Source of the DNA: Candidatus Parcubacteria bacterium
GTDB taxonomy: Bacteria; Patescibacteriota; Patescibacteriia; Patescibacteriales; UBA12075
NCBI GenBank assembly: GCA_023139655.1
Contig: JAGLNE010000096.1
Coordinates: 1-11,015, forward strand
Length of the DNA stretch: 11,015 nucleotides
Direction of reading: 5' to 3'
Position numbers and translations under genes: made by a program. The stretch's first letter is position 1, and the number at the start of each line of letters is the position of its first letter. Below are positions 1 to 7,966 of the stretch, piece after piece. The notes below the pieces were generated by a model, which saw nothing but the letters and a program-made list of their open reading frames with translations, was not told the origin of the DNA and did no database searches.

Positions 1-33
1 AAAAAAAATATCTAAAATTAGATAAGTTTTTTT
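1..33 (+). terminator. Possible AT-only intrinsic terminator
   Basis: An A-run (1-8) leads into an inverted repeat TATCTAA (9-15) / TTAGATA (18-24), followed by seven T (27-33). The stem has almost no GC, so it would be weak. It could be the tail of a terminator for a gene left of the window. Confidence 0.35.
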
Positions 34-44
34 GCTGTTTTGCA

Positions 45-66
45 CGGAGGTGGTTCGGATTCGAAC
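45..66 (-). other. tRNA 3'-end-like fragment (T-arm remnant)
   Basis: Read on the - strand, this stretch contains GTTCGAATCC followed by a C-rich stretch, which resembles the T-loop, the 3' T-stem strand and the start of the acceptor strand of a tRNA. No matching 5' half, anticodon arm or complementary T-stem strand is present, so it is not a tRNA gene. It could be a remnant or half of an integration site, or chance similarity. Confidence 0.25.
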
Positions 67-180
67 TTTATTGATTTTTTGTTGGTTTTATGTTAAGTTA
101 AACAATCTCGTTCATTCTAACACCATTGATTTAACAACAAATATTGTAACCTCAATAGCTACCATACAAGGAGGAAAGTT

Positions 181-1484: not shown

Positions 1485-1508
1485 TTCGGAAGCTGTCCGA
1501 GTATGCGA
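1485..1508 (+). repeat. 24-bp intergenic repeat, copy 1
   Basis: Identical over 24 nt to 3441-3464 and 7837-7860; it begins TTCGGAAGCTGTCCGA. The first part can form a small hairpin (TCGGA / TCCGA with a 5-nt loop). This copy runs directly into the stem-loop at 1509-1539. Confidence 0.92.
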
Positions 1509-1565
1509 GCCACGAAAAATGGCTTCGCCATCTCGTGGCACGCCACATCAAAATAATGCGTGCCA
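1509..1565 (+). other. Overlapping, mutually exclusive hairpins
   Basis: Hairpin A pairs GCCACGA (1509-1515) with TCGTGGC (1533-1539), with an inner stem ATGGC / GCCAT (1519-1531). Hairpin B pairs TGGCACGC (1536-1543) with GCGTGCCA (1558-1565). They share bases 1536-1539, so only one can form at a time. This is the geometry of an attenuator or a structured RNA, but the same DNA could also be a palindromic element. Confidence 0.6.
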
Positions 1566-1608
1566 TAATTATATAAATATGGGTTATAGAATCCATTTTT
1601 GACGTGAG

Positions 1609-1638
1609 CCACGTGATGCGCTTGCGCATTTTACGTGG
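1609..1638 (+). repeat. Compound inverted repeat with CCACG stem
   Basis: CCACGT (1609-1614) pairs with ACGTGG (1633-1638), and inside it ATGCGC (1616-1621) pairs with GCGCAT (1624-1629). The architecture and the lead-in GAGCCACG match the hairpin at 1507-1539, so the two look like members of one element family. Confidence 0.7.
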
Positions 1639-1669
1639 AAGGAACGTGAATAGTAGTCCAGTTTGCCAC

Positions 1670-1705
1670 AACACAAAAACACGTCTTTTGACGTGTTTTT
1701 GTGTT
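1670..1705 (+). terminator. Strong hairpin, probable terminator
   Basis: A 16-bp perfect stem AACACAAAAACACGTC (1670-1685) / GACGTGTTTTTGTGTT (1690-1705) with a TTTT loop. The T-rich 3' arm is typical of an intrinsic terminator and could act on both strands. It may end transcripts of the structured region before they enter the nuclease gene. Its 3' arm overlaps the putative promoter of that gene. Confidence 0.7.
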
Positions 1706-1732
1706 ATACTTGAGTAGTGTTACAATAAGGAG
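1702..1732 (+). promoter_or_regulatory. Extended -10 promoter and Shine-Dalgarno of GIY-YIG gene
   Basis: TGTTATACT (1702-1710) is an extended -10 motif (TGN plus TATACT). The predicted start near 1717 leaves a leader of about 20 nt that contains AAGGAG (1727-1732), four bases before the ATG at 1737. No good -35 box is seen. Confidence 0.45.
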
Positions 1733-1736
1733 AAAT

Positions 1737-1997
1737 ATGTTTTATGTTTACTTACTAGAATGCCAACAAGGCAAGTCGTGGTATATCGGCTATACTTCAG
1801 ACTTAAAGAGAAGGATAAATGATCATAAAAATGGTCATGGATGTCGCACTACATCCATGAAACGAAACTGGAAATTAATATATTACGAAGCATATATAAT
1901 AAAAAATGATGCAATTGGGCGAGAAAAGTTTTTAAAGAGCGGGTCTGGCAGAAGGTATCTCCACAAACAATTAAAATTTTATTTAAATAAATCATGA
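1737..1997 (+). CDS. GIY-YIG domain nuclease-like protein (UPF0213/YhbQ type)
   Basis: An 86-aa protein consisting of a single GIY-YIG domain, the usual size for stand-alone members. Motifs: FYVYLLEC (2-9), equivalent to GIY; WYIGYT (15-20), the YIG motif; the conserved arginine in DLKRRINDH (22-30); LIYYEAY (47-53); and the metal-binding glutamate in AIGREKFLKSG (59-69), Glu63. Known family members cleave or nick DNA; the biological role of the short solo forms is unclear. The start at 1737 is chosen over 1701 because AAGGAG lies four bases upstream and the domain begins at once. The upstream 250 bases are packed with hairpins and one copy of the 24-bp repeat. The stop is TGA, the only one among the complete genes here, and the next gene starts 18 bases later in the same frame, so the two are probably co-transcribed. 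Confidence 0.88.
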   Translation: MFYVYLLECQQGKSWYIGYTSDLKRRINDHKNGHGCRTTSMKRNWKLIYYEAYIIKNDAIGREKFLKSGSGRRYLHKQLKFYLNKS

Positions 1998-2015
1998 TTT
2001 AAATTTATTTATTCT

Positions 2016-2741
2016 ATGAAAATAATAAAAACTAAAAGTTTCGAATTAGCTACAATATCAAATGGTGATAAAAATTCGTCCAAATTAGCGTTGTTATTAC
2101 CAGGGCAACTTGATACCAAGGATTATGCTCACATGGTAAGCCACGTTGAATTTTTGGCCGACAAAGGTTATTTCGCCGTATCTTTTGATCCGCCCGGAAC
2201 TTGGGATAGTCCTGGTGATATTGGACTATATACAATGACTAATTATCATAAGGCCGTTGACGAATTAATAGAATTTTTTGGTAATAAGCCGACAGTGTTA
2301 ATGGGGCATAGTCGAGGTGGAAGTATGGCGATGTTGGCTGGTCCTAATAATCCAAATGTAACACATATCATAGCTGTGATGTCACATGTTGGGCCAAGTA
2401 CCTTAAGAGAGGAAGATATAACTGATGGTATAAAAATTTCATATCGAGATATGCCACCGAATGACACTAAAAACAAAAAAAGGTTTGATTTGCCGGTAAA
2501 TTATTTCGAAGACACCACTAAACATGATATTCTAGGTGGCTTAAAGAATTGCGATAAACAAAAATTATTTTTTTACAGCACCAAGGACGTATTAGTTAGC
2601 GCAGAAGGAGTCAAAAAAATCTACGAACAAGTACCAATGCCCAAGACTATTCATAAACTAGAAACAGAACACGATTATAGACTCCATAGAGATATGATTG
2701 AGGAGGTTGAGAGAGTAGCATGGGATTTTCTATCTCAATAA
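2016..2741 (+). CDS. Alpha/beta hydrolase family protein
   Basis: A 241-aa cytoplasmic alpha/beta hydrolase. Landmarks: LALLLPGQLDT (24-34), the strand-3 and oxyanion region; FDPPGTWDSPG (57-67), the strand-4 loop; the classic nucleophile elbow GHSRGG (97-102) with Ser99; YSTKDVLVS (187-195) with the likely acid Asp191; and EHDYR (218-222) with His219. The triad is complete, so it is probably an active esterase-, lipase- or peptidase-like enzyme; the substrate is unknown. No Shine-Dalgarno site precedes the ATG; the gene begins 18 bases after the GIY-YIG stop and is likely translated from the same message. It is clearly different in sequence from the hydrolase at 713 and is not a recent duplicate. 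Confidence 0.88.
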   Translation: MKIIKTKSFELATISNGDKNSSKLALLLPGQLDTKDYAHMVSHVEFLADKGYFAVSFDPPGTWDSPGDIGLYTMTNYHKAVDELIEFFGNKPTVLMGHSRGGSMAMLAGPNNPNVTHIIAVMSHVGPSTLREEDITDGIKISYRDMPPNDTKNKKRFDLPVNYFEDTTKHDILGGLKNCDKQKLFFYSTKDVLVSAEGVKKIYEQVPMPKTIHKLETEHDYRLHRDMIEEVERVAWDFLSQ

Positions 2742-2748
2742 TTTCAAC

Positions 2749-2761
2749 TACTAACTTCACA
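2749..2761 (+). repeat. 13-bp direct repeat, left copy
   Basis: TACTAACTTCACA here is identical to 3420-3432, and both copies are followed by an A-run. The pair brackets the peptidase gene at 2785-3396. Confidence 0.75.
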
Positions 2762-2769
2762 AAAAAAAG

Positions 2770-2775
2770 TATAAT
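2770..2775 (+). promoter_or_regulatory. -10 box giving a near-leaderless message
   Basis: A perfect TATAAT ends nine bases before the ATG at 2785. Transcription would start about two or three bases before the start codon. No convincing -35 box is visible and no Shine-Dalgarno site could fit. Confidence 0.5.
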
Positions 2776-2784
2776 ATTATTTTT

Positions 2785-3396
2785 ATGAAAGCATTTTTAT
2801 TATCACACAATATCGGACAAAAACACATTGACCTATTTAAAAAAATTATAGGTCAGCCAAAAGTATCAAAAGCGTTATTTATAACAACAGCAGCTGTACC
2901 TTATGGATTTGATCCAAAACCGGAATGGTTAAGTGAATCGCTTGAAAGTATGAGTCAATTTGCTGAGACTGTTGATGAAACTTCACTTGAAGCAGGCGAA
3001 TACATGCCTAACGATTTGAGCCAGTATGATTTTATTTTTGTTAGCGGTGGAAATACTTTTTACTTAGCATATCGTCTAGCAAAGATTGGATTAGATAAAA
3101 AAATAAAAGAGTATATAAATAACGAAGGAGTATTTTCAGGTAGTAGCGCTGGTTCAATAATTTTAATGGATAGCATTGAACACTTTGTTCCAGCAGACGA
3201 CCCGAGCAAAGCACCGAAAATATATTCAGGATTGGGTTTGATTGATTTTGCTGTTATCCCTCACGCTAAAAGTGAAAAGTATGGGTTAGTAATGGATAAA
3301 ATTGCTGAAAAATATAAGGCTGAAGGTATCGATGTGATTCCAATAGATGACAATCAAGTACTGGTGATTAATAACGGAAATAAAGAGATTATCTAA
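2785..3396 (+). CDS. Peptidase S51 family protein (dipeptidase E-like)
   Basis: A 203-aa member of the class I glutamine amidotransferase-like fold, peptidase family S51. Visible marks: FVSGGNTFYLAYRL (85-98), the conserved GGN-T motif of S51; the nucleophile elbow GSSAGS (119-124) with Ser121 as catalytic serine; and IPHAKSEKYG (158-167) with His160 as catalytic histidine. Length is slightly below the usual 220-230 aa of PepE but the core is intact. Known members cleave Asp-X dipeptides or act as cyanophycinase-like enzymes; the exact substrate here is unknown. It is cytoplasmic, without a signal peptide. It probably has its own promoter (TATAAT at 2770) and a leaderless start. It is flanked by a 13-bp direct repeat and followed by a copy of the 24-bp repeat and a terminator, so it looks like a self-contained unit. 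Confidence 0.88.
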   Translation: MKAFLLSHNIGQKHIDLFKKIIGQPKVSKALFITTAAVPYGFDPKPEWLSESLESMSQFAETVDETSLEAGEYMPNDLSQYDFIFVSGGNTFYLAYRLAKIGLDKKIKEYINNEGVFSGSSAGSIILMDSIEHFVPADDPSKAPKIYSGLGLIDFAVIPHAKSEKYGLVMDKIAEKYKAEGIDVIPIDDNQVLVINNGNKEII

Positions 3397-3419
3397 AAAC
3401 AAAATTGTAATTTATTTTT

Positions 3420-3432
3420 TACTAACTTCACA
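3420..3432 (+). repeat. 13-bp direct repeat, right copy
   Basis: Identical to 2749-2761 and, like it, followed by an A-run. It lies 24 nt after the stop codon of the S51 peptidase gene. Confidence 0.75.
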
Positions 3433-3440
3433 TAAAAAAA

Positions 3441-3464
3441 TTCGGAAGCTGTCCGAGTATGCGA
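3441..3464 (+). repeat. 24-bp intergenic repeat, copy 2
   Basis: Exact match to 1485-1508 and 7837-7860, same orientation. It is followed 14 nt later by a terminator hairpin of unrelated sequence. Confidence 0.92.
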
Positions 3465-3478
3465 GCACCGATTTTTTT

Positions 3479-3520
3479 AAAAAACACCACTAATTTTAGA
3501 TAGATTTAGCGGTGTTTTTT
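3479..3520 (+). terminator. Rho-independent terminator
   Basis: AAAAAACACC (3479-3488) pairs with GGTGTTTTTT (3511-3520). The stem extends inward with one mismatch (CTAA 3490-3493 / TTAG 3506-3509). The A-run before and T-run after make it potentially bidirectional. It ends the peptidase transcript. Confidence 0.85.
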
Positions 3521-3523
3521 ATT

Positions 3524-3544
3524 AGAGGAGACAGGGGTTTGAAC
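3524..3544 (-). other. tRNA 3'-end-like fragment
   Basis: On the - strand this reads GTTCAAACCCCTGTCTCCTC, the look of a T-loop, 3' T-stem strand and acceptor strand of a tRNA. The 5' T-stem strand and the rest of a tRNA are missing. Like the fragment at 45-66 it sits just after a T-run hairpin, and both are followed on + by GAACTTT. Confidence 0.3.
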
Positions 3545-3581
3545 TTTTAATACACACGTAATTTTTTATTATTAAATAATA

Positions 3582-3590
3582 TGGTATAAT
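3582..3590 (+). promoter_or_regulatory. Extended -10 promoter of response regulator
   Basis: TGGTATAAT is a perfect extended -10 motif. The predicted start near 3597 gives a leader of about 30 nt before the ATG at 3627, with no Shine-Dalgarno site and only a T-rich -35 region. Confidence 0.6.
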
Positions 3591-3626
3591 ACATAAAGAT
3601 AAATAAAAAAAATTATTAAAAATCTT

Positions 3627-4001
3627 ATGTCTAAAACATATAAAATTGTTATTTTGGAGGATGACCGCATCCTATTAAAGGCGTTGAATATTGAATTGCT
3701 CAGTAGCGGTTTTGAAGTGCTTTCAGCGACCGATGGTGAGTCCGGCTTAAAATTAATCAGCAGGGAAAAACCTGATTTAGTATTATTGGATTTGGTAATG
3801 CCTAAAATAGATGGTTTTGAAGTTTTAACCAAATTGAAAAAAAATAAAGACACCAAAAATATCCCTGTAATTATATTAAGCAATCTGGGGCAGGACGAAG
3901 AAATAAAAAAGGGGTTGAAGCTTGGTGCTTTGGATTATTATAAAAAGGCGTCCACAGACCTAAGAGAATTATCCAATAAAATTAAAGGGTCATTGCCTTA
4001 A
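3627..4001 (+). CDS. Single-domain response regulator (CheY-like receiver)
   Basis: A 124-aa receiver domain with no output domain. The acidic pocket Glu11-Asp12-Asp13, phospho-acceptor Asp55 (in LVLLDLVMP), switch Ser85 and conserved Lys107 are all in place. The proline that normally follows the lysine is replaced by alanine. It receives a phosphoryl group from a histidine kinase; with no DNA-binding domain it must act through protein contacts or as part of a relay. No kinase lies in its own transcript; the nearest, at 5718-7715 on -, already has its own regulator downstream. Two membrane proteins follow after 13 bases on the same strand and may be co-transcribed, hinting that they share a pathway. 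Confidence 0.93.
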   Translation: MSKTYKIVILEDDRILLKALNIELLSSGFEVLSATDGESGLKLISREKPDLVLLDLVMPKIDGFEVLTKLKKNKDTKNIPVIILSNLGQDEEIKKGLKLGALDYYKKASTDLRELSNKIKGSLP

Positions 4002-4014
4002 TCAAGGTATTACT

Positions 4015-4299
4015 ATGCGGACAAGATTGACTAATTTAATACTTCATACCACTTCTTTGATCAGCAGAAAGAAAAAACAGCTGTTAATTTCCCATGCTTC
4101 TGTTTCCATTGTTAATATTATTGTAATAATTGTCTTAGAAATATTTTTGGTCATTATTTCAATTCCGCTATATACAATTTATGGCAATTTACATGGAAAT
4201 AATAAAATCCGGCATTGGGCTGTCCGGATTGTTTTTTTAACGATTTTGATTATTTTTTTGATAATCGGAATGGCAAAGCTTTTGGACTTCAAACTATAA
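4015..4299 (+). CDS. Small two-helix membrane protein, 94 aa
   Basis: Unrecognised family. A basic N-terminus (RKKK at 18-21) precedes two predicted membrane helices, about 29-55 and 67-89, joined by a short loop (GNLHGNNKIRH). The first helix holds LEIFLVIISIPLY (41-53), which closely matches LELFLLIISLPVY in the first helix of the next gene product, and the second helices are also alike. It is therefore the anchor module of its neighbour without the outside domain. AAGG at 4004-4007 may serve as a weak ribosome-binding site. It starts 13 bases after the response regulator stop and probably belongs to the same operon. Confidence 0.78.
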   Translation: MRTRLTNLILHTTSLISRKKKQLLISHASVSIVNIIVIIVLEIFLVIISIPLYTIYGNLHGNNKIRHWAVRIVFLTILIIFLIIGMAKLLDFKL

Positions 4300-4339
4300 T
4301 ACATAATAATAAATAATCTCACTTAACAATATTATTACT

Positions 4340-5323
4340 ATGTGGCTGAATTTTATCTCCAGAATCTCCAGCTTAACCCACAACTTAAAAACAAAATTTA
4401 CCTATGCCGGGGTATGGAAAACAATCGGGTTGTCCGCGATAGTGATTTTATTGGAGCTTTTCCTCCTCATTATTTCTTTGCCCGTTTATATTTTTATTAC
4501 ACCGGAGAAAATCAGTAAAGACAAACAAGAAGTTGAGAGATACAGGCTAAAAAGAAAATTTTCCCTTATTGGAGTCGCGGGTTTTTTGCTGTTGGTTTTA
4601 TTAAGAATAACCCTGTTTAGCGGTTTATTTTTTTCTAGCTCAATTCAAGTCAGGGCCCTCACCCTAGATTGGGATTTTAGTAACTCTGCGGATTATGTTT
4701 ATGATTCCAACAGGATAAAACTATGGGACGGCATGGCAATTTATAACTCTCAAAAAGTCGATTCAATTAATATTGAAATGCCGATTGCCAGCCTTTATCC
4801 GGTTAACTCTTTAAAGACCTCCAATATTATTAGATGGACCGGTTTTACGGAAACTGCCAATAAAAACGGAGGTAATATTCATTATCAATTATCCGATGAC
4901 GACGGCCAAACTTGGTATTACTGGGATGGTTTTATTTGGACTGAGGCTGGCGAGCATGATTATAATGAAGCTGCGACAATAGATAGCCAGATAAAAAGTT
5001 TTTATGCCGACAATGGGCAGATTAAATTCAAGGCTTTTTTTATCAATAATTATCCCGCGCAAATTAAATTAATCGACCTGAGCTTTTCTTATGATAGTGT
5101 TCATTCGGAGGATTACGGCTTAATCCAAGGCTATTCAAAAGATAATTTGTGGCTGTACCACGATTTCGGAAACGAATATTGGATATTCGGCATCAGGGAA
5201 GCATCCTCAGCCATAGCCATAGACAGCAACGGACAATGCGTTAAATTTGAAGGCGAAGTCCGCAAATGCTCGCAAAGCGATTATGCGCTTTTAGTCAGCG
5301 TAAAAACTTTAGTTGGAAAATAG
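4340..5323 (+). CDS. Membrane-anchored protein with outside beta-rich domain
   Basis: A 327-aa protein. Two predicted membrane helices (about 30-53 and 74-101) are separated by a charged stretch rich in lysine and glutamate (55-73). From about 105 to the end follows a large domain rich in aromatic and polar residues that looks like beta structure; the stretch HYQLSDDDGQTWYYWDG (181-197) recalls sandwich repeats seen in bacterial surface proteins. Cys300 and Cys310 could form a disulfide if outside the cell. The membrane anchor is paralogous to the 94-aa gene just upstream. The 40-base gap has no clear promoter or terminator, so the three + genes (3627, 4015, 4340) may be one transcript. A role as sensor, adhesin or envelope component is possible; none can be shown from sequence alone. 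It converges with the - strand response regulator after 11 bases, with no obvious terminator between them. Confidence 0.82.
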   Translation: MWLNFISRISSLTHNLKTKFTYAGVWKTIGLSAIVILLELFLLIISLPVYIFITPEKISKDKQEVERYRLKRKFSLIGVAGFLLLVLLRITLFSGLFFSSSIQVRALTLDWDFSNSADYVYDSNRIKLWDGMAIYNSQKVDSINIEMPIASLYPVNSLKTSNIIRWTGFTETANKNGGNIHYQLSDDDGQTWYYWDGFIWTEAGEHDYNEAATIDSQIKSFYADNGQIKFKAFFINNYPAQIKLIDLSFSYDSVHSEDYGLIQGYSKDNLWLYHDFGNEYWIFGIREASSAIAIDSNGQCVKFEGEVRKCSQSDYALLVSVKTLVGK

Positions 5324-5334
5324 TGAGAGACAGG

Positions 5335-5700
5335 CTATATTAATTCTTTAACTCTATTGGTCAACATTTTCAAGCTATGATCGCTTTTGGGCAAAAAATT
5401 TTGTACATTTAAATGTGCGAGGTTGTTAATGTTAGCCGCATCACGCTTTATAGTGAGAACAATCAATGGATATTTATCTATAATTCCTTTTTCATTCATT
5501 TTTTGTAGTACCCATTCACCGGGCTTTACTGGCATGAGTAAATCCAGAATAATTAAATCTGGTTTCGTTTCGATAATCTTTTTAAATCCTTCCTCACCGT
5601 CAAAAGCCTGAACCACTAAATAGCCTTCGGTCTCCAGAGCATCTTTTATGGCTTTTTGCAGCACGTTGTCATCTTCAATGACAAGAATTTTTTTAGGCAT
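5335..5700 (-). CDS. Single-domain response regulator, partner of the upstream kinase
   Basis: A 121-aa receiver domain alone. Glu9-Asp10-Asp11 form the acidic pocket, Asp53 (in LIILDLLMP) is the phospho-acceptor, Thr83 the switch residue and Lys105 the conserved lysine. Unusual points: VKPGEW (58-63) replaces the common xxDGxE after the MP motif, and a serine replaces proline after Lys105. It starts 17 bases after the stop of the histidine kinase on the same strand, so the two form an operon and are probably a cognate pair. It lacks an output domain, so it likely works by protein contact or as an intermediate in a relay, like the regulator at 3627, with which it shares overall layout but only moderate similarity. 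Confidence 0.93.
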   Translation of the reverse strand: MPKKILVIEDDNVLQKAIKDALETEGYLVVQAFDGEEGFKKIIETKPDLIILDLLMPVKPGEWVLQKMNEKGIIDKYPLIVLTIKRDAANINNLAHLNVQNFLPKSDHSLKMLTNRVKELI

Positions 5701-5717
5701 AAATTATTTCTTAAGTA

Positions 5718-7715
5718 TTAAATATTTTTCAGGGGCAATCCAATATAAAAGATGGTGCCGCCACCCTCTTTGGATTTGAACCAGATACGTCCACCATTCG
5801 TCTCTATTATTGATTTGGCAATGGACAAGCCCAGTCCGGTACCGTAATCCGCTTGAGCTATGTTGTGGGCGCGAAAAAATTTTTCAAATATTCTTTTATG
5901 CTGAGCCTGCGGTATGCCAATGCCGTCATCCTTTATCCTGACAACAGCTTCTTTGCCCCTTTTTTTGAAACTTATCAAGACTTTTCCGTTTTCGTGGGAA
6001 TACTTAATGGAATTACTAAGGACATTGCCCAGTGATAGTTTGATTTTATCGCGGTCAATATTTAACATCAATTTGACCGGGCTTTTTTCATATTCTACAT
6101 TCACCTTTTTAACTTGAGCAAATTTTCGCTTGTCTTCTATAACTTCTTTAATAATTTTGCTCAAGTTAGTGCTTCTTTTAACAACCTTAAAATGACGGCC
6201 TGTTTCAATGTGTGATAAATTAAGTAGATCGTCTATGAGGTCTACTAACTTGTTTGTACTTTCACGAATATCATCCATATATTCTCTTTGCTTGCCGCTA
6301 AGATCTTCTTTAAGCATCAGCTCGCTCATCCACTTGATGCCTGTCATCGGGGTCTTAAGCTGATGCGAGGCGAGTGATACAAACTCAGATTTCATCCGAT
6401 TAATTTCTCGCTCGCGAGTAGCATCCCTGAACACGATTACGCAGCCGATAGTTTCACCTTGACTATTTTTTAGGGGGACGGCGCTGTCCGCCACCGGTAT
6501 CTTCTCACCTTTTTTAGATATGAGCAAAGTGTCGCTCGGCATTGATTGGGTTTCTCCGGTGGCTATGGCCTGGATGATGAAATCATTGTTTGCTATACGC
6601 GGATTGGATTCATGGACAAATCGTAAAATTTGGGAATACTTTTTATTCAGTGCTTCCTTTTCCGAATATCCGGACATTCGACTGGCAATCGGATTAATAA
6701 GCAAAATCCGCAAATCGCAATCCACTACAAAAACGCCGTCGCCAATGCTTTGGACAATTGTTTCAATTTTACTTTTTTCCCGGCTGACTTGCTCTGTCTT
6801 GGATTTAATTTCTTTAATATTCTGTTTATTTTCATAGATGCCGGAAATGGAATTGGCGATTGTTCGGAGCATAATTATTCCGGAAGCTTGCCACTTTTTT
6901 GCCTTGTCAACCCTATCAAAACCGATGAAGCCGAAAAATTTATTATTTACGATAAGCGGTAAAATGAGAATTGACTTGATGCCCCGCGGTTTTAATGCCT
7001 TTCTTATATCTATAGGCAATTTTGAGACATCTCGGGATAAAAATATACTTTTATTATGTAAATTTTTTAGAAAAAAGAAATTTTCATTAAAAGATATATT
7101 TTGCGAATTACTGATCTGTGGTTTTATGTTATCCGCACACCATTCAAAAGTATTGGTAGAGGTTTTTCCGTCAGAACTGTTTTCAAAAATGTAAGTACGG
7201 CTGGCATCAATGTGGACAGCGATTTTTTCCAATATTTGACTCATCGTTTTTTGAAAATTTTTATATCGATTAAGCTTTGTCGATATTTTAGCTAATATTA
7301 TTTGCTGGTCCAAATTTTCTTTTATCTTTTTCTCGTTTTGTTTGTGTTTGCTTATATCAATAATTACAGTCAGTAAAAATTTTTTGTTTTGGTTCTCAAG
7401 GATTTCTTCGGAAAAAATACTATCTAATATTATCCCGTTACTTGTACGTATCTTCAGCACTGCATTTTGTATATATCCTTTCTTTCGCAGAGCATCCTTT
7501 ACTTTTTTTTGTTTTTCAGGCTGGACAAACATGTTAAAATCAACGGCGGTTTTACCGATAACATCAGACATCTTATAATGCAATTTTTTTAAAAAAGCGG
7601 CATTAACTTCAATAAATTTTCCGCTTTTTAGTTCGCTAATGGCCATGGGTACAGGATTCCTTGCAAACAGCTTATTGTAAAAATTTTTTTCTTTATTTTT
7701 CGCTTGGTTCACCAT
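5718..7715 (-). CDS. Soluble PAS-GAF-PAS sensor histidine kinase
   Basis: A 665-aa kinase without membrane helices, so it senses in the cytoplasm. Domain order: PAS about 12-125; GAF about 138-297 (strands ILILPLIVNNKFFGFIGFD, 249-267); short coiled coil 298-320; PAS about 318-435, ending in VIVFRDATRERE; HisKA 441-507 with the phospho-acceptor His451 in SHQLKTP; HATPase_c about 553-662 with N-box NVLSNSIKYS (564-573), G1 box DDGIGIP (596-602) and G2 box GTGLGLSI (625-632). All motifs needed for autophosphorylation are present. The signal is not known; PAS and GAF pockets often bind small ligands, haem or flavin, but no diagnostic residue is evident. It is the first gene of an operon with the receiver at 5335. 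No Shine-Dalgarno precedes its ATG; an extended -10 lies upstream at 7759-7767. Confidence 0.95.
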   Translation of the reverse strand: MVNQAKNKEKNFYNKLFARNPVPMAISELKSGKFIEVNAAFLKKLHYKMSDVIGKTAVDFNMFVQPEKQKKVKDALRKKGYIQNAVLKIRTSNGIILDSIFSEEILENQNKKFLLTVIIDISKHKQNEKKIKENLDQQIILAKISTKLNRYKNFQKTMSQILEKIAVHIDASRTYIFENSSDGKTSTNTFEWCADNIKPQISNSQNISFNENFFFLKNLHNKSIFLSRDVSKLPIDIRKALKPRGIKSILILPLIVNNKFFGFIGFDRVDKAKKWQASGIIMLRTIANSISGIYENKQNIKEIKSKTEQVSREKSKIETIVQSIGDGVFVVDCDLRILLINPIASRMSGYSEKEALNKKYSQILRFVHESNPRIANNDFIIQAIATGETQSMPSDTLLISKKGEKIPVADSAVPLKNSQGETIGCVIVFRDATREREINRMKSEFVSLASHQLKTPMTGIKWMSELMLKEDLSGKQREYMDDIRESTNKLVDLIDDLLNLSHIETGRHFKVVKRSTNLSKIIKEVIEDKRKFAQVKKVNVEYEKSPVKLMLNIDRDKIKLSLGNVLSNSIKYSHENGKVLISFKKRGKEAVVRIKDDGIGIPQAQHKRIFEKFFRAHNIAQADYGTGLGLSIAKSIIETNGGRIWFKSKEGGGTIFYIGLPLKNI

Positions 7716-7758
7716 ATTTTATGTTTATAGAATTACATAGAAATATTATTCTCTCTTT

Positions 7759-7767
7759 ATTTTAACA
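7759..7767 (-). promoter_or_regulatory. Possible extended -10 promoter for the histidine kinase
   Basis: On the - strand this reads TGTTAAAAT, an extended -10 motif, placing the start of transcription near 7752 and a leader of roughly 37 nt. No -35 box is clear. Confidence 0.4.
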
Positions 7768-7836
7768 TTTTTTACCTTAAAATACAATTTAAGGCAGTAA
7801 TTTCAATGTTTTGATAATTAAATTTTAATAAAAAAG

Positions 7837-7860
7837 TTCGGAAGCTGTCCGAGTATGCGA
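7837..7860 (+). repeat. 24-bp intergenic repeat, copy 3
   Basis: Exact match to 1485-1508 and 3441-3464. The next bases (AAC) differ from the GC that follows the other two copies. No + strand gene lies just upstream, so the repeat is not tied to the 3' end of a gene. Confidence 0.92.
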
Positions 7861-7868
7861 ACAAACGG

Positions 7869-7898
7869 CACAAAACGCCCCAATAGGGGCGTTTTGTG
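7869..7898 (+). other. 13-bp perfect hairpin
   Basis: CACAAAACGCCCC (7869-7881) pairs with GGGGCGTTTTGTG (7886-7898) around an AATA loop. No T-run follows on either strand, so it is a strong structure but a poor intrinsic terminator. Confidence 0.75.
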
Positions 7899-7966
7899 GT
7901 GCTTAATTCTGTGCGACCCCTGCCTGCAACACAAGCTTGCGAGCAAACCCAGGCGGGAGCAAATTT

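Follow-up and report, generated by a model that had tools for sequence, protein, structure and literature searches.

A 24-bp repeat that occurs three times in an 11,015-bp stretch of DNA from Candidatus Parcubacteria bacterium (GenBank contig JAGLNE010000096.1, hereafter the window) is very likely the phage-side (P) arm, together with the GA crossover core, of an attachment (att) site used by a large serine recombinase (LSR). On this att-site reading, the window very probably is a stretch of a tandem array of inserted gene blocks, with each 24-mer marking the end of one block. Comparison between contigs of related bacteria revealed a change of the left neighbour exactly at GA, flanks that are common to transfer RNA (tRNA) genes and 24-mers, and LSR genes adjoining tRNA genes as well as a 24-mer.

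The three identical copies of the repeat (TTCGGAAGCTGTCCGAGTATGCGA) lie on the + strand at 1485-1508, 3441-3464 and 7837-7860. Sequence search and folding bore out the preliminary description, which had reported identical, same-strand, intergenic 24-mers that are each followed by a different hairpin and do not form part of a gene's 3' end. Copy 1 is located 16 nt past the stop of an open reading frame (ORF) at 713-1468, copy 2 lies 44 nt past the stop of ORF 2785-3396, and copy 3 is 5' of a kinase gene that is encoded on the minus strand and ends at 7715. A minus-strand ORF of 80 aa (1370-1612) overlaps copy 1; it looks spurious, as it overlaps ORF 713-1468 as well. In an alignment of 35 sites from this and related genomes, conservation extended from -7 to +25 (AAAAAAGTTCGGAAGCTGTCCnnGTAYGCGAGC), and both sides of this block were weakly conserved. 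Judged by 24-mer identity and by this conservation, the 33-bp putative arm plus core comprises 1478-1510 in copy 1, 3434-3466 in copy 2 and 7830-7862 in copy 3 (all + strand), with the predicted GA core at 1507-1508, 3463-3464 and 7859-7860, respectively.

The window corresponds to contig C145 of a genome of 1,194,981 bases in 148 contigs. Scanning all of these bases at up to 3 mismatches gave exactly 3 matches, and 0 with the reversed control pattern; one more copy, with 4 differences, is present on contig C144. The preliminary description had proposed to look for the 24-mer elsewhere in the genome, where it turned out to be nearly absent, and for the layout of head plus flank in relatives, where it is kept. 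At up to 3 mismatches the motif was found in 12 of 98 relatives. Of 111 genomes from the order, 12 contained it when two of its bases were left free, and none contained the control pattern. The exact 24-mer had no match in either viral_contigs or genome_contigs. A degenerate exact pattern matched 1 contig in viral_contigs and 18 in genome_contigs, which by title are 6 Falkowbacteria, 4 Magasanikbacteria, 5 Parcubacteria, 2 'bacterium' and 1 Endomicrobiaceae. The contig titled Endomicrobiaceae (L070) carries a tRNA-Gln-anchored array of the 24-mer type and is probably mis-binned. A complete attP with both arms (exact pattern) was not found in viral_contigs, and a shorter arm pattern recovered only the same single viral record there.

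Read outward from GA, the P arm has the form GC-RTACnn-GGACAGCTTCCGAAC, i.e., GC-N6-GGAC, and the opposite arm of LSR-linked sites the form GC-N6-GRAC. Inverted half-sites around a central dinucleotide, as is typical of LSR sites, were thus recognizable: the motif GRAY (G[AG]A[CT]) stood at the mirrored offset in 13 tRNA flanks out of 60, and 17 other offsets gave no more than 1 each. The distal GAAC element is positioned at +19 in the P arm vs. +14 in the tRNAs, and the best-matching shift was 5 for Gln (8/15) and 4 and 5 tied for Asn (9/15), part of this shift being built in because the tRNA T-loop is fixed. A 5-bp shift between attP and attB is reported in the consulted sections of PMC3783163.

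The most direct view of the putative crossover comes from a natural before/after junction pair. Locus L085 (isolate CSMAG_488) and locus L027 (contig C78 of genome G001) have 4,540 bp in common with 2 mismatches and no gap (99.96% identity). The identity starts at GA; the left neighbour is a tRNA-Asn 3' end in one contig and a 24-mer closing another block in the other, which is what a crossover at a short core common to host and element site would be expected to leave. The next 24-mer, about 4.2 kb further on, is also common to both. With one genome per species in the collection, the two bins nominally represent two species, and one of the contigs is perhaps mis-binned; the junction itself is independent of whether this is so.

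A link to tRNA genes was observed well beyond this pair. In 11 of the 25 site-bearing contigs a Gln/Asn-type tRNA 3' end lies upstream in the same orientation; 9 of these ends were called by ARAGORN (6 Gln, 3 Asn), one belongs to a tRNA-Asn split by a group I intron, and one is partial without a tRNA body (G092). In the stretches fetched from the other 14 contigs no tRNA of any kind was called. Group I introns (RF00028, 79-110 bits) were seen in the tRNA-Asn region of L180, L185 and L187 (genomes G001, G076 and G058), for which reason ARAGORN misses the tRNA-Asn at these loci.

The sequences behind the sites point in the same direction. For 16 of 38 non-redundant sites the flank matched flanks behind tRNA-Gln/Asn-type 3' ends (42 pairs at E≤1e-6, which are not independent because the flanks form families), and 32 of the 42 matches begin at the same offset, no more than 12 nt from the core. 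The L070 flank and that behind the tRNA-Gln of G085, for instance, share 97% identity across 148 nt. The site flank of G079 matches the flank behind the tRNA-Gln of G073 (81% over 99 nt), and about 2.5 kb upstream of the tRNA can be aligned too (71%); G079 therefore contains a 4.1-kb insert between tRNA and flank. Comparing G079 with G089, the genes upstream of tRNA-Gln match, while downstream nothing does. Two G058 loci at contig ends, L187 and L231, have one and the same 95-nt flank, following tRNA-Asn in one case and tRNA-Gln in the other.

The hairpins that follow the repeat have been read differently, namely as part of a dispersed mobile or regulatory RNA in which a constant structured head is joined to variable hairpins. 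Folding 75 nt behind each copy against 60 shuffles each gave a hairpin behind every copy of the window. The hairpin behind copy 1 (1509-1539, + strand, z -3.4) and that behind copy 2 (3479-3520, + strand, z -4.2) are probably former tRNA terminators, the flank of copy 1 being 71-87% identical to flanks behind five tRNA-Gln/Asn-type 3' ends and that of copy 2 sharing 78% identity across 79 nt with the sequence behind the G006 tRNA-Asn. Behind copy 3 (hairpin 7866-7901, + strand, z -3.2) no tRNA-flank match was found, and 24-mer plus flank are 88% identical over 93 nt to a G001 site. As the window's downstream genes had no protein match in G001, what copy 3 has in common with that genome is a short module only.

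The layout of a constant head joined to variable hairpins is real and dispersed in relatives, and most copies indeed have a hairpin behind them (z below -2 in 26 of 38 flanks). However, flanks behind tRNA genes belong to the same families and fold equally well or better (46 of 59), and the downstream hairpins differ in sequence from site to site. The small internal hairpin (TCGGA/TCCGA), described earlier as a feature of the head, is not conserved: its five pairs form in 18, 6, 30, 33 and 35 of the 35 sites, and all five in just 4 of 35. Head positions 14-15 vary freely, and no covariation was seen within the head in these sites. Rfam gave no match in the window at gathering scores. Since two variable bases break the head hairpin in most sites, the downstream hairpins are unrelated to one another and also stand behind tRNAs, and Rfam has no match, the RNA reading is not supported. 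We rejected an RNA element on the head-hairpin counts, the flank folding and the Rfam result and consider it extremely unlikely; of the initial suggestion, the link to mobility was retained and the RNA was not.

If the 24-mer is an LSR site, LSR genes should be found next to such sites. On C144 an LSR gene, which encodes resolvase and recombinase domains, overlaps the 24-mer with its 3' end. The nine loci nearest to this LSR end on tRNA-Gln (3), tRNA-Asn (2), tRNA-Ser (1), a 24-mer (1), a tRNA-type 3' end uncalled by ARAGORN (1) and a contig end (1); the locus of this clade that ends on a 24-mer is in the window's own genome. In 22 of 30 LSR loci a facing tRNA 3' end lies between -120 and +60 nt from the stop, and in 3 more within -171, so that tRNA targeting is general in this group. 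On contig C111 of the window's genome, the beginning of a right arm of this kind and a partial LSR of the C144 clade come directly after the tRNA-Asn. The array of the window may hang on tRNA-Asn. Resolvase domains above the Pfam cut-off were detected in 8 of 13 site-bearing genomes. In G009, LSR, Zot and Rep genes lie between a tRNA-Asn and a 24-mer, and an IMG/VR provirus record corresponds to this interval, its start being inside the tRNA-Asn and its end 69 bp beyond the core. On C144 there are DnaB-like and terminase-small-subunit genes; with no terminal overlap of at least 15 nt, it cannot be taken for a closed circle, i.e., a free phage genome. The C144-type clade would be the one that performs the reaction.

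An array could also have been made by a tyrosine-recombinase system, e.g., an integron or a Xer/tycheposon-like element. The blocks resemble integron cassettes in containing one or few genes, mostly in one direction (57 ORFs with the sites and 22 against, from simple ORF calls of at least 80 aa), and 12 of the 13 site-bearing genomes do possess a tyrosine recombinase. Yet none of these enzymes is near a site: of the 28 listed matches, all but those of G058 (9.7 kb away) and G089 (more than 30 kb away) are on contigs that have no site, and no PF00589 match, as for an IntI beside its array, occurred within 9 kb of the listed sites in the 13 genomes. Integron attC boxes read RYYYAAC ... GTTRRRY; by inspection, the head reads GTTCGGA instead. 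Moreover, it is LSR genes and not tyrosine recombinases that adjoin the tRNAs and one 24-mer. With no tyrosine recombinase near the sites, an origin from attC sites or tyrosine recombinases was not supported and is very unlikely.

Several observations weigh against the att-site reading. The core edge is GAAC rather than GAGC in 4 of the 35 aligned sites. The mirrored motif was found in only 5 of 38 flanks of 24-mers, and equally in 5 of 38 at offset 3, so that a canonical right arm is absent from most of the inserted blocks; this distribution would fit attL and attP carrying the right arm, with most 24-mers being attR-type scars. No tRNA-flank match was obtained for 22 of 38 sites, including copy 3. 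Genomes G001, G023, G041 and G092 had no resolvase domain match and G089 one below the cut-off only, in metagenome-assembled genomes (MAGs) that are incomplete. L085 stops short of the tRNA, and mis-assembly or a mis-binned contig is possible. Finally, known LSRs are reported, in the part of PMC3783163 consulted, not to accept attL without a helper factor. Since a first insertion turns the tRNA into an attL, repeated insertion needs either decay of the right arm or a laxer enzyme. Right-arm decay may explain the serial insertion.

In the mechanism we propose, a circular element would recombine its attP with an attB formed by the 3' terminus of a Gln or Asn tRNA gene (...CCCCGAGC or ...CCGGGAGC), the strands presumably being cut exactly at GA. 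The tRNA would stay intact and be joined to the right arm of the element (attL), and at the far end the 24-mer would be joined to what formerly followed the tRNA (attR), in most cases a terminator hairpin. Several rounds of insertion at a single tRNA would yield a tandem array in one orientation, with a presumed order of insertions.

Two complete putative blocks lie in the window. Block 1 (1509-3464, + strand, 1,956 bp), bounded by copies 1 and 2, encodes by Pfam a GIY-YIG protein, an alpha/beta hydrolase and an S51 peptidase. Block 2 (3465-7860, + strand, 4,396 bp), bounded by copies 2 and 3, encodes a response regulator, two proteins without Pfam assignment (one scanned without match, one outside the scan), another response regulator and a PAS/GAF histidine kinase. 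The 3' part of a further block (1-1508, + strand) would end in copy 1 and contains ORF 181-585 (no Pfam match) and ORF 713-1468 (a weak acyl-transferase/hydrolase match below cut-off). Pfam scans covered 7 of the window's 8 ORFs and, separately, 40 of the 79 block ORFs; cargo elsewhere includes methyltransferases, radical-SAM, RtcB, Fic, NYN, a metal-type ATPase and DNA methylases. Across relatives, 24 intervals from a tRNA or 24-mer to a 24-mer measured 0.65 to 13.4 kb (median 2.1 kb), two of them being the same block in L085 and G001 and one having a G058 end with 6 differences.

A full-length LSR was present in 1 of the 24 blocks, the G009 block with Zot and Rep. The 23 blocks without one would be either decayed elements or cassettes moved in trans. 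That the array consists only of decayed LSR prophages, no block ever moving without its own LSR, is to us an evenly balanced proposition. Remnants of LSR C-terminal codons behind a tRNA or site in G092 and G010, and deeper in the G089 array, favour decay for some blocks, as do the partly degenerate G089 sites (2, 0, 5, 3 and 4 differences in order from the tRNA). On the other hand, the 23 blocks begin and finish at the core despite having no full-length LSR, the median block measures 2.1 kb, and the three 24-mers of the window are perfect. We suggest tentatively, and with somewhat less than even confidence, an integron-like gene capture in uncultured bacteria with small genomes, based on a serine recombinase, in which tRNA-Gln/Asn 3' ends would serve as loading dock, the 24-mer as universal cassette end, and phage-borne LSRs (of inoviruses and tailed phages) would move LSR-less cassettes in trans. 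Decay of the incoming right arm would then re-license the tRNA for the next insertion.

Among known systems, the sites of large serine integrases (A118/Listeria type) are similar in their pseudo-palindrome around a central dinucleotide, one half-site of roughly 25-29 bp, an adjoining LSR gene and the position of the distal GAAC, which in the P arm is shifted outward by about 5 bp relative to the tRNA, a shift described for attP vs. attB in PMC3783163; they differ in that here tRNA 3' ends are targeted and the P arm occurs mostly as tandem scars without LSR. Staphylococcal and enterococcal cassette chromosomes (SCC/ECC; ccr) likewise are described, in extracts from PMC6222049, as LSR-driven variable cargo at a conserved gene 3' end with remnant att sites. 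There, however, the target is rlmH and not tRNA-Gln/Asn, the LSRs are others, and ECC measure at least 21 kb vs. 0.6-13 kb here. Insertion into rlmH by ccrAB was not observed, the target being a tRNA 3' end, although no search was aimed at rlmH or ccr. Additive flexible genomic islands and tycheposons share tRNA-anchored blocks of variable size with direct repeats (PMC10872708); their repeat is the tRNA end itself or their recombinase is of the tyrosine type, whereas here it is a phage-side arm that differs from the tRNA. For inoviruses of the Candidate Phyla Radiation (CPR), selected passages of PMC6813254 report CPR hosts, serine recombinases and tRNA att sites, and the G009 element has Zot and Rep; neither an att motif nor an array of LSR-less blocks appears in those passages, and C144 has DnaB-like and terminase-small-subunit genes instead. 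In the open-licence literature of PubMed Central we found no paper that deals with the 24-mer motif or, in these bacteria, with LSR cassette arrays anchored at tRNAs.

The 24-mer could serve as a readable molecular marker of genes gained horizontally by a lineage that is known here from MAGs only. Each copy would date and delimit one inserted block and predict the attP/attB pair of an LSR clade. If LSR-less blocks do move in trans, they would represent a serine-recombinase counterpart of the integron. It also becomes testable how a genome of about 1 Mb acquires accessory genes such as hydrolases, methyltransferases, radical-SAM, RtcB, Fic and restriction-modification genes.

The sites would explain contig breaks at these places as well. 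The first bases of the window (1-86, + strand) look like sequence following one more att site or tRNA, which would be situated about 14 nt ahead of the contig start: they match the flank of a G009 24-mer at 84% identity over 88 nt, the alignment beginning about 15 nt past the core there. Because the contig starts about 14 nt past sequence aligning to an att core, the assembly probably broke at a repeated site. Window positions 45-70 and 3524-3545 form one flank family with L026 behind tRNA-Asn, with an apparent inverted piece of a tRNA 3' end (GGA...GGATTCGAAC). In addition, a 20-nt direct repeat (95%) is present at 2749-2768 and 3420-3439; the second copy leads into att copy 2, and the first stands alone before the peptidase gene.

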